Positions 1 through 55,325 of a stretch of DNA of 55,325 nt are shown piece by piece. The notes under the pieces are model-generated. The model was not told where the DNA came from. It was given only the letters and a program-made list of their open reading frames with translations, and made no database searches. Source of the DNA: Gammaproteobacteria bacterium (lineage in GTDB: Bacteria > Pseudomonadota > Gammaproteobacteria > VBWC01); the NCBI GenBank assembly GCA_023266115.1, contig JAHFRU010000018.1, positions 1 through 55,325 on the forward strand. The letters are read 5' to 3'. Made by a program: the position numbers and the translations under genes. Each line of letters opens with the position of its first letter. Positions within the stretch are counted from its first letter, which is position 1.

Positions 1-40
1 TCTTGCTTTGCTTCGGATCATACGGAATGAACTTTGGCAT
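1..40 (-). CDS. Partial transposase N-terminus (IS1182-like)
   Basis: Reading leftwards from an ATG at 40, the 13 visible codons give MPKFIPYDPKQSK. This resembles the conserved N-terminus (FIPYDPKQS) of IS1182-type DDE transposases as I remember it. An AGGAG motif lies a few bases before the ATG. The rest of the gene is outside the window. The DNA at 41-112 would then be the terminal part of the insertion sequence, placing an IS directly against the last attC-like site of the cassette array. The identification rests on a short peptide. Confidence 0.45.
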   Translation of the reverse strand, partial: MPKFIPYDPKQSK

Positions 41-112
41 TTGTCATCACTCCTGCCGGAATGTTACGCCATTTTATCAGAGCGCTATGACAGCTATTAG
101 GTTTTTCTACAG

Positions 113-199
113 CCTCAACGCTCGCCATAACCGGCAGAAAAAAGTGGCTCGACGAAGGAGCGACGCTTTTTGCTGTCCGTGTTGATGGCGTGGTTAGGG
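113..199 (-). other. attC-like site, end of two-gene cassette
   Basis: On the minus strand the inverse core CCCTAAC (193-199) contains the stop codon of the upstream small gene. It is followed by CGCCATCAAC, a central imperfect palindrome, then GTTATGGCG and a weak right core GTTGAGG (113-119). The paired CGCCAT/ATGGCG blocks and AAAAAG/CTTTTT arms give the bulged hairpin expected of attC. The right core is off consensus and may have been replaced by the terminus of the neighbouring IS. Confidence 0.6.
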
Positions 200-400
200 C
201 TTGCGCCGGTTATACGGAGACTGGTTTGTGGGTTTAAGAGACACCCCAACTTCCGATGCCTTGGCTTGAACTGCTTCCGCCGTACGGCCAAGCTTCAAGC
301 CAGCCACTCGCGTTGGCGTATTTTGCTTCGCAAGCTCTTTTAGTTGCGCGACATCTTCTTTAGACCATTGCTTACCATGATTTTTAGGTTCTTTGGCCAT
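194..400 (-). CDS. Small basic SANT/Myb-like cassette protein
   Basis: A 68-residue, lysine-rich protein of unknown function. The central segment (KQWSKEDVAQLKELAKQNTPTRVAGLKLGRTAEAVQ, split here as KQWSKEDVAQLKELA and TRVAGLKLGRTAEAVQ) looks like a helix-turn-helix of SANT/Myb type. Similar short proteins ending in SLKPTNQSPY occur in many proteobacteria as hypotheticals, as far as I recall. GGAGTC precedes the ATG at 400. It is the second gene of its cassette, 37 bases after the Cys-rich gene, and its TAA is part of the attC inverse core. DNA binding is inferred from fold resemblance only. Confidence 0.65.
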   Translation of the reverse strand: MAKEPKNHGKQWSKEDVAQLKELAKQNTPTRVAGLKLGRTAEAVQAKASEVGVSLKPTNQSPYNRRKP

Positions 401-437
401 GAATATGACTCCATGAGAAAGTAGGAGAAGACTGCGT

Positions 438-737
438 TTACTTCACGCAGATGCCGTATATTTGCCCGCTACGTTTCATGCAAGAAAACCCAATGCCGCA
501 GTCAGTATCAAATGAACAATTGCCGACATTCTGTGGTTGTGACCGGGGCGTAGAGTAATCGTAGGTTTTGTTGCCGAATTGATCGCTTGGTGTGACACAA
601 ATGCCCGTGATGTTAATGTCACCAGATGCTTTAACACATTTGTTGCCGAAGCCACAGTCAAAATCGCTGTTACATGCGGCTGAGGCAACACCGTTTAACA
701 GGAACCAAATTCCAAACACTGCAATAACCTTAACCAT
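438..737 (-). CDS. Secreted protein with two Cys-rich repeats
   Basis: A 99-residue protein. The ATG at 737 is chosen over upstream codons because AAAAGGAGAAGAGC sits directly before it. Residues 1-20 form a signal peptide (VKVIAVFGIWFLLNGVASA), so export to the periplasm or beyond is likely. The mature part holds two copies of a four-cysteine unit, residues 22-47 and 74-97, with pattern C-x5-C-x5-C-x10/12-C and shared DCGxG and GICV. All eight cysteines fall in the repeats, suggesting disulfide-stabilised mini-domains. I do not recognise a named family. First gene of a two-gene cassette, 19 bases after the cassette start TTAGGGC. Confidence 0.7.
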   Translation of the reverse strand: MVKVIAVFGIWFLLNGVASAACNSDFDCGFGNKCVKASGDINITGICVTPSDQFGNKTYDYSTPRSQPQNVGNCSFDTDCGIGFSCMKRSGQIYGICVK

Positions 738-757
738 GCTCTTCTCCTTTTCTGTAG

Positions 758-845
758 CCCTAACGTAATGGAGTTGAGCGGCGCCGATGCAATGCGGCAT
801 GGATATCCGCATGCATGAGCATCGTGGTCACCGCTGTTGTTAAGG
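758..845 (-). other. attC-like site, end of the cassette without a clear gene
   Basis: Minus strand: left core CCTTAAC (839-845) and right core GTTAGGG (758-764). In between are paired AGCGG/CCGCT and CGATG/CATCG blocks around a GC-rich palindrome with GGATATCC at its centre. The right core forms the start of the next cassette (TTAGGG). The left core does not complement the ATAGGC at this cassette's own start, so the cassette may be rearranged. Confidence 0.6.
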
Positions 846-1140
846 CACCTCGTCGGCGTCCGCTCGAACGACGCGTTCGGCGTGAGAGGTCGTGAGTGCC
901 GGTCTCTTCTGGAGCGGTCAGCCAGCGAGTAGTCCCGCTATGCCGGGCCACAGGAGGATTCGGGTGGGTGATGCCCGAAGCGTTGATACGTCTGTGCGCA
1001 TCAACGCTCGCGTTATGCGACAGTGCGTTCAACGCTTCGCGCGCTAGCATATCCCCCCCCCTCTTCATGAAGTCCCCCCGTGTCGTGATAGGGCGCTTTT
1101 GGCTTTTGTCGTTGTCGTGCCTTTCTCTGCCACCGCCTAT
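764..1140 (-). other. Cassette with no confident gene
   Basis: This 377-base cassette lies between two attC-like right cores. The only sizeable minus-strand frame (760-1068, 102 codons) starts behind an unusual run of G, has low-complexity Arg/His-rich content, and stops inside the attC core, so I do not call it a gene. A perfect 8-base hairpin, GCGTTGAT/ATCAACGC with a 12-base loop, lies at about 993-1020. It could carry a structured RNA, a promoter or a decayed gene. Confidence 0.4.
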
Positions 1141-1200
1141 CGCGCTGAACGATTCGCTTGAAGCGCGCGGCCACGCGTCGCTTCGAAGCGATTGTTATAC
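1135..1200 (-). other. attC-like site after the GIY-YIG-like gene
   Basis: Minus strand: inverse core GTATAAC (1194-1200), including the TAA stop of the gene, followed by AATCGCTTCGAAGCG, a GC-rich centre, the partly complementary CTTCAAGCGAATCG, and the right core GATAGGC (1135-1141), one base off GTTAGGC. At 66 bases it has the size and the long imperfect palindrome of integron attC sites. Confidence 0.7.
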
Positions 1201-1791
1201 AGCATTCGAATTCTCCTCCGATAGCGGAGAGTTGGGGCTTAACGGAACGGTTTGAGATTCTGAAGGCATTCTTGCAAAAAATTCATCGCCTCTCTGCACG
1301 AATTTCTCAACATCACCCTCGTAGACTTCGTTTAGTACCAACGTGCAGTCACTTTTAGTGATACTGTCCATTGCAGCGCGATCCCAAGCCCGTTTACATT
1401 TCCACGATTTCACGAGACGCGCTGTTGGAGCAGAGGTCTGATGCTCTTTCAAGCGAACTTCTAGTGAGTCGGTGTAACCGATTTTCACCCGAGTCGGGAG
1501 AGCTTCGGGTACCAGCTGAATCACATAGAAATATCCGAAACCTCCGCTCGCGAATACATCCGCAGAACCATTCAGTAGGGTGGTCTCTCCCCGCTTGCTC
1601 TCGAAATAGGCAATAATCAAATTTGCGTGAGCGTCTGAGACGCATAACGCGCTCCGGGCTCTACCGGGGACCATTCCCTTCAGAATTTCGAGATCAGATT
1701 CGGATTGAATCCGTCGTACTGCACGACGGACGGAGGTAACTTCGACTCCTATCTTCTCTGCGACCTGATCTAAGGTGAGGTAGTCCGGCAT
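1195..1791 (-). CDS. HTH plus GIY-YIG (T5orf172-like) protein
   Basis: A 198-residue protein in its own cassette. Residues 1-55 look like a helix-turn-helix (LTLDQVAEKIGVEVTSVRRAV). Residues 86-175 resemble the T5orf172/MUG113 branch of the GIY-YIG nuclease superfamily: GYFYV (86-90) for the GIY strand, KIGYT (103-107) for the YIG strand, then R113 and an HQTSAPTA segment typical of that branch. A glutamate near residue 155 (NEVYEGD) could complete the active site. Nuclease activity is inferred from these motifs. The ATG at 1791 follows GAGGTTGATTG. The C-terminal 20 residues are Ser/Pro-rich and reach the attC core. Confidence 0.7.
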   Translation of the reverse strand: MPDYLTLDQVAEKIGVEVTSVRRAVRRIQSESDLEILKGMVPGRARSALCVSDAHANLIIAYFESKRGETTLLNGSADVFASGGFGYFYVIQLVPEALPTRVKIGYTDSLEVRLKEHQTSAPTARLVKSWKCKRAWDRAAMDSITKSDCTLVLNEVYEGDVEKFVQRGDEFFARMPSESQTVPLSPNSPLSEENSNAV

Positions 1792-1815
1792 TCAATCAAC
1801 CTCTGTGCTCATGCT

Positions 1816-1871
1816 GTATAACGTAGAAGTAACCGGCCTGCGCGGCTTTTCGCGCGACTGCTAGGTTAGAA
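1816..1871 (-). other. attC-like site after the TIR-like gene
   Basis: Minus strand: inverse core TTCTAAC (1865-1871), then a palindrome built on GCGCG/CGCGC with a short loop, then right core GTTATAC (1816-1822). Length 56 bases. TTCTAA complements the start TTAGAA of the same cassette, and TTATAC at the right complements the inverse core of the next cassette. Confidence 0.7.
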
Positions 1872-1874
1872 GTC

Positions 1875-2942
1875 TTAGCCACCTTTTATGGCGCTCTTGA
1901 ACACTGCCTCCTCGGGATTCTGAATGGCGGACAGGATGTTCTCGGCAACCTTTTCAATTAGTTTGTTTCCCCAGAAGGGGTCGCTCATATCGTAGTAAAT
2001 GACGCGGATGTGTTGAAGATCGAATGGAACATCTTCTTCTTTCGCGGAGACCAGGACTACTGGTTTCTTCATCGCGTGCGCTAACCCCAACTCATAGAAG
2101 ACGTTTGGATTGCGTGTCGTCAACTCAGCGACCAAGACCTTGGCCTCGTTAATGCCGTGCCACACTTGATCCATGATCTTGCCTGTAGCGAAAATTTCTG
2201 CGTCTGCACGAACTGGGCGCAGCCCCGCTTTTTCAATTGCGGGCCTATAGATTTTCTCGTAGTACTCACCGAGCGGCGCTGCGAACGGCTGCATCACAAA
2301 GCAAGAGTCATTCGCCCCAACGTTTGTGGCTTTCTCAAGTTTTTTCAACCGCTCAGATTGGGCGGGTGCAGCCGCGTCACTACTAGCTACGTCCGTAACG
2401 CGAACTTTTTCGCCGTGCCTTGAGATTAGCTCTGCGGTCTCGAGTGACTCAAGGAAGACCTGTTTGAACTCTCGGAAACTATCGGCCGGAACCTTGTATG
2501 TTTCGACAACTGTGTTCCGTAGGAACTGGTCGTCTGGAATATTTTCGCCACGGTAGTGTTGATACACCTCGGAGATGTCCGGCGCGCTCATAACGGCCTG
2601 CCGATAGCCATCGATGGTGTCGCTCGGTGACTGAGGTCGCAATATCTTCTTCGCCAACGCGGTGGGTTGAAGATGACCAGCCTCCGGTTGCTCCAGGAAT
2701 CCGTACTTGATGGCGGAACTAATTTCAACGCCAAACGGTCCTGCTGGACTGCCAAGACCAAGGAACTTGGCGGCGTCTGCTCGGCTGCACGATTTGCCTG
2801 CGTTCTGGTCGAGGATGGCTTGGGCGATTCGGATTGCCTTTCCTACCGCGTGCCGAGGAAACTTTGCTTTGCTGCTTGCTGGCGCTACCGACTTCACAGC
2901 GGAAGGCTTCTTCGCCGATTTGACTGTCTTCTTTGTAACCAT
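1875..2942 (-). CDS. Winged-helix plus TIR/NDT-like domain protein, candidate defence effector
   Basis: A 355-residue protein. Residues 1-30 are a Lys/Ala/Ser-rich basic tail. Residues about 32-185 resemble a winged-helix region (ADAAKFLGLGSPAGPFGVEIS, with YGFLEQ and LQPTALAKKIL) of the kind I associate with DUF5343. Residues about 212-345 match a TIR / nucleoside 2-deoxyribosyltransferase-like fold: CFVMQPF (214-220), RADAEIF, GKIMDQVW, and NPNVFYELGLAHA (278-290), whose Glu284 is in the position of the catalytic glutamate of those families. Such proteins often hydrolyse NAD or nucleotides in immunity; here that is inference. AAAGGAG lies 11 bases before the ATG at 2942. Confidence 0.7.
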   Translation of the reverse strand: MVTKKTVKSAKKPSAVKSVAPASSKAKFPRHAVGKAIRIAQAILDQNAGKSCSRADAAKFLGLGSPAGPFGVEISSAIKYGFLEQPEAGHLQPTALAKKILRPQSPSDTIDGYRQAVMSAPDISEVYQHYRGENIPDDQFLRNTVVETYKVPADSFREFKQVFLESLETAELISRHGEKVRVTDVASSDAAAPAQSERLKKLEKATNVGANDSCFVMQPFAAPLGEYYEKIYRPAIEKAGLRPVRADAEIFATGKIMDQVWHGINEAKVLVAELTTRNPNVFYELGLAHAMKKPVVLVSAKEEDVPFDLQHIRVIYYDMSDPFWGNKLIEKVAENILSAIQNPEEAVFKSAIKGG

Positions 2943-2967
2943 CGGTATGACGCTCCTTTGGTTGGAC

Positions 2968-3031
2968 TTCTAACGTTCAAATTGAGGGGCTGCGCGCTTT
3001 TGCGCAGTCCCTCTCGAATGTAGGGTTGGGC
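2968..3031 (-). other. attC-like site after the PIN-like gene
   Basis: The clearest site of the array. Minus strand: inverse core GCCCAAC (3025-3031, fits RYYYAAC fully), then GAGAGGGACTGCGC, a 4-base loop, and GCGCGCAGCCCCTC with an unpaired extra base, then right core GTTAGAA (2968-2974). The unpaired bases in an otherwise perfect hairpin are a hallmark of attC recognition on the folded bottom strand. Length 64 bases. Confidence 0.8.
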
Positions 3032-3037
3032 GTCGAT

Positions 3038-3595
3038 TTAGTCATGACCATTCCACGGTGGAAGCTCGCCACCGAATTCTTTGACGAACTGGACGTTGAA
3101 TTCGTCGCGCTCTTGAATTTTCTGTCGTACAAAATCTACCGCTTCATCAGGCGAGAGAATCTTCACAAAATCTTTCAGCTTGTGACGGTTGCCGAGGATT
3201 CCTCCCGGCTGTGTCTTTGAGCCGCCGTCGCCAGTAACAAGGATGGCTGCATACTTCGCAGCTTCGCAAACAATGCGCACATCGTTCAGTTGGTTTTCGT
3301 CGCGCGCACCATCAGGAAAAAGTGCGCTCTCCACCTGCCTAAACTGAGGATCGGTAGGCTCTACTGGTGGCGTTGCCGTAAAGATGTTTTGATTGGCCTT
3401 TCGCGTTCTCATGGCATTGCCATCCGCCTGCGCTTCGCCATGAGCAGTAGCGGACATGTTTATCAAAATCACCTCATCGTCGTACCACTTCTCCAGTTGG
3501 TTAACGGCAGCCAACTTCTGACGAGCATTGATGAGGTTGGTATCGATATGCAGTACCGGGATGTACAGCAATCTACGCTCCATGCGGATAGTCAT
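3038..3595 (-). CDS. PIN-like domain cassette protein
   Basis: A 185-residue protein, first in the array. The N-terminus LLYIPVLHIDTNLINAR has the strand plus aspartate (D18) that opens PIN-type nuclease domains. A middle MSATAHGEA supplies an acidic residue, and NDVRIVCEAAKYAAILVTGDGG resembles the second conserved acidic helix-strand. The C-terminal part (ILSPDEAVDFV) fits the final PIN helix. RNase or toxin activity is inferred; no antitoxin gene is adjacent. The frame is open from a TTG overlapping the cassette junction at 3613; I prefer the ATG at 3595. The next ATG, at 3583, is also possible. Confidence 0.55.
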   Translation of the reverse strand: MTIRMERRLLYIPVLHIDTNLINARQKLAAVNQLEKWYDDEVILINMSATAHGEAQADGNAMRTRKANQNIFTATPPVEPTDPQFRQVESALFPDGARDENQLNDVRIVCEAAKYAAILVTGDGGSKTQPGGILGNRHKLKDFVKILSPDEAVDFVRQKIQERDEFNVQFVKEFGGELPPWNGHD

Positions 3596-3607
3596 CGCGG
3601 ATTCCAC

Positions 3608-3729
3608 GCCCAACTAGGTTTCGACACCCTAATTGGTATCTTGTTTTACACCACTATGGTGTAAAACACTTTCCCGTCGTCTATTAATCAATCGCTTAAT
3701 CCGGATATTACTGGGAAATACACCCTAAT
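3608..3729 (-). promoter_or_regulatory. Array head: core site, 11-bp palindrome and flanking direct repeats
   Basis: A perfect core GTTGGGC (minus strand, 3608-3614) begins the first cassette. Upstream lies an uninterrupted inverted repeat with arms GTTTTACACCA (3643-3653) and TGGTGTAAAAC (3657-3667) around CTA. The decamer ACACCCTAAT occurs at 3624-3633 and again at 3720-3729. The region could be an attI-like site or the promoter/operator that drives the cassettes. I cannot assign a regulator to the palindrome. Confidence 0.45.
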
Positions 3730-3783
3730 GAAATCGGCAAGTACACCACGCACTGCCGACACCGCCCGCCAGCAATATCCGCA

Positions 3784-4659
3784 TCAACACCCCTCCCGCG
3801 CGTGGCTGCGCGCTGCGAACAGTGCCGCCGAGACGATCAGTGCGCCGCCGATCCATTCGGCCAGTTGCACGACCTCGTCGGTCAGGATTTGTGCCGACAC
3901 GGTGCCGACGACGATTTCGAACAGCAGGATCACGGCCGAGCGGTGCGCCGGCATGTGGGTGACGCCGTAGAGTACGGCCATGGTCATCGTGACGATACAG
4001 ATGGCGCCGAGTGCAAATGCCGACAGATACACGGCGCCGCTGACCTGCGGCAGCGACGGCGTGGTAATCAACAGCAATGCGACAGCGACAATGACGACGC
4101 CGCCCCATGCCACGGCGGCCTTGGTCCAGATCGATACGCCCTGCACCTTGCGCACCACGACGTTGGACAGCGCGAAGGCCATGCCGGAACTGATGGCCAG
4201 CCAGTCGGCGGTATCCTGCGGCCACGGCAGCCCGACCTCGGGATTCCATAACATGATCACGGCGCCGGTCATGGCCAGCAGCAGTGTCGCCTTCGCCTCA
4301 CGTGTCATGGACTCGTGCAGGATCAGTTTGCCGAACAGCACGGTCCACAACGGTGACAGATAGAACAGCAACAGTACGCGCACCACGTTGCCGTCGATGA
4401 CGGCGAGTATGAAGGCTACATTGCACCAGCCGCTGGCCAGTGCCAGCACGACGTAATGTCCAAGATGGTGAAACTCGACGCGATGCCTCCACAGCATCGG
4501 CAGGCCGACCAGCATCGCGGCGCAGTACAGGATCAGCGTCGACCACACCCCTTGCAGGCCGTTGTGTTCGAGCAGACGCAACGGATACCACAGCACGCCC
4601 CACATCGTTGAGCTGATCAGCAGGGCGACGACGGGCACAAATGTCGACAAAGGAGTCAC
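3784..4659 (-). CDS. EamA/DMT family transporter
   Basis: A 291-residue inner-membrane protein with about ten hydrophobic segments and the two-fold EamA repeat. The first half opens with STMWGVLWYPLRLLE and contains LFGKLILHE; the second half repeats the pattern and ends in TDEVVQLAEWIGGALIVSAAL. Family members export or import small metabolites; the substrate cannot be read from sequence. A GTG at 4659 is used as start; there is no good Shine-Dalgarno sequence. It is the first normal chromosomal gene to the right of the cassette array and occupies the place where an integron integrase would be expected. Confidence 0.85.
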   Translation of the reverse strand: MTPLSTFVPVVALLISSTMWGVLWYPLRLLEHNGLQGVWSTLILYCAAMLVGLPMLWRHRVEFHHLGHYVVLALASGWCNVAFILAVIDGNVVRVLLLFYLSPLWTVLFGKLILHESMTREAKATLLLAMTGAVIMLWNPEVGLPWPQDTADWLAISSGMAFALSNVVVRKVQGVSIWTKAAVAWGGVVIVAVALLLITTPSLPQVSGAVYLSAFALGAICIVTMTMAVLYGVTHMPAHRSAVILLFEIVVGTVSAQILTDEVVQLAEWIGGALIVSAALFAARSHAREGC

Positions 4660-55207: not shown

Positions 55208-55325
55208 ATCGGGATAGGAAGAAACCTCACGGCCCCTCCCTCCCACACCACCGTGCGTACGGATCACGTACACGGCGGTTCGACAAATTGAATTCCTACC
55301 GTGACACAAGCGTTGGTAGTCCCAG
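55208..55325 (-). mobile_element. 3' end of a group II intron (domains V-VI)
   Basis: On the minus strand ACCGCCGTG pairs with CACGGTGGT around an inner TACG/CGTA stem with a 5-base loop and a two-base CG bulge (55247-55279). That is the shape of group II domain V. A short GAGGGGCCGTGAGGTTTCTTCC segment (in two parts, about 55216-55240) could be domain VI, followed by TATCCCGAT near the 3' end. The maturase would lie beyond the window. Boundaries are approximate. Confidence 0.65.

Follow-up and report, generated by a model that had tools for sequence, protein, structure and literature searches.

How does an array of integron cassettes come to stand behind an ordinary transporter gene, with no integrase gene beside it? 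The question is raised by contig JAHFRU010000018.1 (C9 in our numbering; hereafter the window, meaning this whole stretch of 55,325 bp), which belongs to a gammaproteobacterial genome of 3.1 Mb in 46 contigs (G000; completeness 98.27, contamination 0.95). The cassettes lie on the minus strand, with the array head at 3614 and the tail leaving the contig at position 1. An earlier note, made from the sequence alone, had called the array a cluster of attC sites lacking integrases (CALIN), with a normal EamA gene where intI was expected. The label fits, as this is a true cassette array with at least two attC sites and no intI nearby. The description of the head was half right: EamA is present and no intI adjoins, but the head carries an attI site, an integrase leader and the start codons of intI. 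The attI and the intI start speak strongly against a simple CALIN born of off-target insertion, and mark the locus as an integron bereft of its integrase gene. We consider it probable that integrons in this genome were decapitated in place, leaving attI-headed arrays that the one surviving integrase could use in trans.

Between cassette 1 and the EamA gene (window 3612 to ~3760) lie attI, the leader, a start codon and approximately 8–11 codons of intI. Positions 3612–3750 align without gaps to C6:1751–1889 over 139 bp at 86% identity, with a score of 183, where none of 200 shuffles exceeded 26; on contig C6 the aligned part takes in attI, the leader and 23 coding bases from the start of an intact intI. 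Measured against a complete integron, the window array therefore has an attI at its head, recognised by this match to C6, and lacks an intact intI, of which the first 8–11 codons are left. The homology starts at the crossover GTT, and on the cassette side the only further match between the two arrays is one attC. The attI with its leader spans 3608–3727 (minus strand), the crossover falling between G and TTGGGC at 3608–3614. The stub that follows, MKSASTPRTAD (3728–3760, plus strand), shares 8 of 11 residues with IntI 1–11 (72.7% identity), too few to be significant by themselves (E 8.8), and is assigned to the integrase gene by these residues together with the DNA alignment to C6. The leader and attI also contain a perfect palindrome at 3644–3666, TTTTACACCACTATGGTGTAAAA, which is imperfect in the copies on C6, C2 and the end of C22; it is a possible operator of the integrase promoter. 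A scan of 3500–3900 for sigma-70 promoters found none.

On the other side of the junction, the EamA transporter gene (3784–4659, minus strand; PF00892, E 2.4e-17) is a conserved chromosomal neighbour that runs in the direction of the cassettes. In a congener (G001) the EamA block is collinear with the window, with gaps (G001 contig 166–45288, window 3779–54535), and on the array side homology begins at window 3779, five bases past the EamA stop codon. Its retention in a 45-kb block shared with the congener speaks against EamA being a cassette. On the array side of EamA, 165 bp of G001 can be seen, with no match to either the window array or the attI stretch of C6; a search of G000 with the left EamA flank of G001 turned up six short matches of 22–44 bp and nothing specific. 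The gene order is thus not that of an ordinary operon kept in relatives, the alternative raised by the earlier note: G001 retains the EamA block and differs on the array side. No IntI match with E up to 0.01 was found in 15 EamA loci (14 from relatives and that of the window) with flanks of up to 1.5 kb each.

The cassette array itself is genuine and partly degenerate. Complementary ends had been claimed for four of the five cassettes (TTGGGC, TTAGAA, TTATAC, TTAGGG), and core and inverse core indeed agree exactly in these four (GTTGGGC/GCCCAAC, GTTAGAA/TTCTAAC, GTTATAC/GTATAAC, GTTAGGG/CCCTAAC), while the cassette at 839–1150 fails (GTTCAGC/CCTTAAC, two of four variable bases agreeing). As a background, 1242 core pairs with similar spacing elsewhere in the window included 26 that are exact by chance (p=0.021), so that the chance of at least four exact cassettes in five is ~9e-7. 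An attC covariance model (R1) was built on nine sites from outside the window: three on C6, one each on C2 and C28, two in G001, and two in G309, a metagenome-assembled genome from a family other than that of G000. Run with filters off on both strands of the 55,325 bases, R1 gave 21 matches, whose top four are four of the five proposed sites on one shared strand: attC1 (2968–3031; 43.0 bits, E 1.8e-8), attC4 (matched at 758–881; 21.0 bits, E 0.005), attC5 (113–199; 20.2 bits, E 0.008) and attC3 (1144–1200; 16.9 bits, E 0.055). The fifth-ranked match reached 13.4 bits (E 0.39). The remaining site, attC2 (1816–1871), was absent from the 21 matches and is supported by the exact cassette ends on either side. 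Over the whole genome R1 found seven places at E 1 or better, namely five training sites, 2968–3031 and, on C33, a weak candidate of 22.2 bits (E 0.14); in this wider search, the three weaker sites of the window fell short of E 1. Bottom-strand DNA folding was strong in three of the five sites (z of −3.2 for 2968–3031, −4.4 for 1144–1200 and −4.5 for 113–199) and unexceptional for 1816–1871 (−1.3) and 758–845 (−0.7). Both checks suggested in the earlier note thus bore out most of the proposed sites, but attC2 escaped the model, and attC2 and attC4 fold unremarkably.

The genome-wide search for intI, likewise proposed in that note, yielded a single intact gene, C6:1867–2883, which is the only integron integrase gene of G000: of 11 matches to TIGR02249 one passes the cut-off of 265 bits (C6:1942–2883, 477.4 bits). 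Recombinases of 320 aa on C3 and C10 were considered as integron integrases and rejected, their matches being piecemeal and below the same cut-off (95.1 and 91.7 bits at best). C3 and C10 are small contigs, each with such a tyrosine recombinase in a 320-aa open frame beside a 405-aa protein that we take to be an IS91-like transposase; C3 also holds what is presumably the start of a group II intron reverse transcriptase.

Set against this one integrase gene are six attI-like places. They were found by searching the genome with the attI stretch of C2; a scan of the contigs with an attI pattern gave no match. Besides C2 itself, the search returned C6 (96% identity over 134 bp, with intI), C22:124492–124635 (90%), the window (88%), C22:15810–15873 (80% over 64 bp) and C28:42853–42885 (91% over 33 bp). 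Four places other than the window therefore lack intI, one on C2, two on C22 and one on C28, and two of these four are partial or degenerate. Comparison of IntI with the stretches around all four found no integrase, only a 30-residue remnant at the end of C22 (E 0.042). Each attI copy adjoins different genes. On C2 the order is cobA, attI, a 2.3-kb unit (L023:924–3243) and an attC with matching ends; its intI remnant stops at codon 8, up to which C2 is 96% identical to C6 and beyond which the two are unrelated. On C28 a shortened attI, as after a deletion between two TTAGGGTGT repeats, precedes a cassette gene, an attC and an AlbA_2 gene. At the end of C22, attI is accompanied by a longer piece of intI with a broken frame, in which KPRLMDQARD can still be read out of frame, and then by the start of a cassette. 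This start and that of the cassette following the third C6 attC are identical for 120 bp, from the GTT crossover in both. The internal C22 copy is degenerate, its first cassette opening with GTTAGGC and showing GCCTAAC 364 bp on. About 3 kb from this degenerate attI, L172:1–837 encodes the start of a protein that we presume to resemble a Cas9 N-terminus.

A class-wide attI search, which scored two candidates per genome and so undercounts (it missed the C6 and C22 copies of G000), matched 2 of 369 genomes, G000 and G309. G309 has attI with intI on its contig C50 and a second attI behind atpC on its contig C60; the latter is followed by three attC sites, two of them R1 training sites, and no integrase was found in the 7 kb inspected there. 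The integron integrase of G001 is broken (L066:6288–7272), the frame from the ATG stopping after 51 residues and the rest lying in another frame, which indicates that integrase loss in this genus is ongoing by another route too. At cobA, G001 carries a TIR gene, an attC (28.1 bits, E 1.3e-4) and exact cassette ends, so the cobA cassettes vary by species, with a methylase–NgoMIV–Vsr unit in G000 and the TIR gene in G001. In all six orphan loci examined for direction (window, C2, C22-end, C22-internal, C28 and the G309 site behind atpC), the upstream gene runs with the cassettes, a chance of 1 in 64, and TauE is placed likewise on C6, behind intI. This is the picture expected if intI were removed.

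According to the scenario that we favour, a complete integron (intI, attI, cassettes) would once have stood downstream of EamA. A deletion would have taken intI except for the leader and some ten codons, joining attI and its cassettes to the 3' end of EamA, and the same kind of event would have occurred on C2 behind cobA and at the end of C22, and probably at the internal C22 and C28 sites. Such losses would account for what the genome now has, one intact IntI, on C6, and five attI-like sites devoid of it, and if each integron lost its intI in a deletion of its own, the remnants should differ in length, as they do. Insertion of cassettes by the C6 IntI probably continues in trans at some of the orphan sites, since this recombinase is diffusible and the better-kept orphan attI sites retain the crossover and adjacent repeats. 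The cassette start shared by C6 and the end of C22 and the differing cobA cassettes are consistent with such use. Because the upstream gene is co-directional, the cassettes could be read through from the promoter of the host gene.

Several observations weigh against this scenario. None of the relatives showed a complete integron at EamA or cobA, so that former completeness at these sites is not directly shown. The 120 bp shared by the end of C22 and C6 have the length of the overlap at another contig break (120–121 bp) and are probably an assembler overlap, the identity farther on being unseen; the contig at the end of C22 stops before a first attC. The covariance model found no attC at the internal C22 copy, and the core site next to attI on C28 is not intact. 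Against use in trans, the part of attI beside the crossover is no better kept than the leader between the window and C6 (7 of 52 positions changed, compared with 12 of 84); better conservation next to the crossover is confined to the pair C22-end and C2 (1 change in 52 positions and 14 in 81, p=0.005). The attI at cobA in G001 is weakly similar, agreeing at 18 of 45 bases where 77 background sites reach a maximum of 17 (the pattern of this anchored identity test excludes the intI-linked site of G001, GTTAGAA, to which the test is inapplicable). In G309, a hairpin with a T run between atpC and attI speaks against read-through at that locus. Lastly, attI-bearing cassettes are documented in class 1 and 2 integrons (PMC12901181) and offer an alternative carrier of attI copies.

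That last point leads to the main rival of decapitation, dispersal of attI itself. A short unit of attI and leader, moving as an attI-type cassette or by another mechanism, would have inserted at the ends of genes and gathered cassettes through IntI supplied in trans, with intI never present at these loci. In the window, C2 and C28 the homology stops at or very near intI codon 8, a few bases apart at most, as in the break between C2 and C6 described above. Published attI-type cassettes carry as much as 244 nt of attI, and IntI1 is reported to have moved those tested (PMC12901181). However, the copy at the end of C22, and probably the internal one, keep more of intI, and the intI linker past codon 8 diverges even among copies with longer intI, so that a shared end point is partly expected anyway. 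We regard a mobile attI unit as an unlikely, if serious, explanation.

Loss of intI, off-target insertion and rearrangement have all been proposed as origins of CALINs (PMC8618304), and the latter two accepted routes could make the window array a plain CALIN, either through insertion of cassettes into the chromosome or through a rearrangement dividing the C6 array. The window and C6 arrays do have a common attC type, and a single G001 contig covers the counterparts of both C9 and the start of C6, yet neither route explains why the window array owns an attI and the start of intI, nor the four further orphan attI places, and we judge this origin very improbable. Separation of the two arrays by contig breaks is excluded, as the array head lies inside the contig. 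It is more improbable still that assembly or binning mixed the contigs of strains that each possess an integron of their own. Several arrays do stop at contig ends, where repeats cause the breaks, but the head of the window array is within a contig that then continues for ~51 kb in gapped synteny with G001, different genes adjoin each attI copy, and the completeness and contamination values given above argue against a mixture.

If decapitation in place is accepted, the head of the window array records how a CALIN arose in one case, and the same genome holds several more. In one survey, CALINs were roughly on a par with complete integrons in number (2961 versus 2760); the same paper reports CALIN inflation in draft genomes (PMC9024848). 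CALINs are defined by attC alone, by default with at least two sites in IntegronFinder 2.0, and the window array resembles them in its several attC sites and lack of adjoining intI while adding an identifiable attI and intI stub. IntegronFinder is described as blind to attI outside class 1 (PMC9024848), so heads such as this one stay unseen; with attI outside class 1 rarely searched for, attI-headed arrays may be widespread. Compared with a complete sedentary chromosomal integron such as that on C6, the window array shares attI, attC sites, cassette ends and attC type, and differs in that its intI would have been deleted.

Second attI sites are themselves already published, in one prophage (PMC9892861) and in complex class 1 integrons (PMC7056807). 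The prophage, like G000, combines an intI-bearing array with a second attI-headed array without intI; as described, both its arrays lie within one element, whereas here five attI-like sites occupy separate chromosomal loci and an intI stub is present. The complex class 1 integron of SGI1 likewise has two attI sites with their own cassettes in one genome, but both are reported from a single 15-kb mobile resistance region, unlike the scattered loci of G000. Xanthomonas genomes (PMC12444791) combine a single intI locus, placed downstream of a gene, with CALINs at other loci and progressive integrase loss, as G000 does; the passages on their CALINs at several fixed loci describe no attI or intI stubs there, in contrast to G000. 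In the attI-type cassettes of class 1 and 2 integrons (PMC12901181), attI is also apart from intI and still usable by IntI, but there it takes the place of attC as the 3' site of a cassette inside an array, while here attI heads arrays behind chromosomal genes. Recombination between two attI sites is reported as well (PMC8946536). In searches of the open PMC library, which leaves most subscription papers and bioRxiv preprints uncovered, we found no report of one integrase serving several dispersed attI arrays. We tentatively put forward, as a possibility that we think rather doubtful at present, a distributed integron in which one integrase serves at least four scattered attI platforms behind co-directional host genes, cassettes are captured and expressed at many addresses, and the attI unit may spread. 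Were the surviving IntI to use the orphan sites, an integron would be a network of platforms, a CALIN need not be a dead end, and one enzyme may serve many scattered gene-capture sites.

Several of the cassettes that would belong to such a system are anti-phage genes, which are prominent among the cargo in the handful of cassettes seen. In the window, all cassettes being on the minus strand, cassette 1 (3025–3614, exact ends) has a 181-aa open reading frame (ORF; 3038–3583) with no family match, whose predicted structure (mean predicted local distance difference test 48) is too poor for a fold search; attC1 behind it and the third attC in the C6 array share 91% identity across 58 bp. Cassette 2 (1865–2974) holds a 355-aa ORF (1875–2942) with a C-terminus like TIR domains and nucleoside deoxyribosyltransferases (PADLOC TIR effector, E 7e-9; PF05014, E 1.1e-4, below cut-off). 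Cassette 3 (1194–1822, exact ends) encodes a 198-aa protein (1195–1791) with a GIY-YIG-type T5orf172 domain (PF10544, 21.5 bits, cut-off 20). The degenerate cassette 4 (839–1150), bounded by attC4 at 758–845, has mismatched ends and no convincing gene, and the remaining cargo is small unknowns, including the two ORFs of cassette 5 (193–764, exact ends) at 194–400 (68 aa) and 438–740 (100 aa, Cys-rich), for which no Pfam or NCBIfam family scored above cut-off.

Elsewhere in G000, the first cassette behind the intact C6 integron (L017:981–1688) encodes a ThsB-type TIR protein (PADLOC, E 1.6e-124) with a low-complexity N-terminal stretch rich in Ser, Gly and Tyr. The C2 cargo is a complete type II restriction-modification set of a C5 cytosine methylase, an NgoMIV-type endonuclease (E 5.1e-126) and Vsr, which from attI to the matching-ended attC (L023:924–3299) forms a three-gene cassette of ~2.3 kb.

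Both ends of the window fall in repeats or probable repeats. The left end cuts the array behind attC5, within a repeat (1–120, minus strand) of which identical copies of 120–121 bp also terminate C2 and C4. The repeat begins with GTTGAGGC at the crossover, and the identical 120–121 bp open with CGTTGAGGC; they follow attC5 in the window and another attC on C2. The repeat is either the end of an attC-targeting insertion sequence or the start of a shared cassette. An ORF starting MPKFIPYDPKQSK begins in it and has no plasmid match; without a database match, we presume a likeness to IS1182-type transposases. At the right end, outside the part syntenic with G001, lies the single Rfam match of the window at gathering thresholds, a group II intron domain at 55208–55280 (RF00029, 42 bits), and the contig break there is probably in a repeated intron; the gene inward of it is one that we take to be RibD/DHFR-like.

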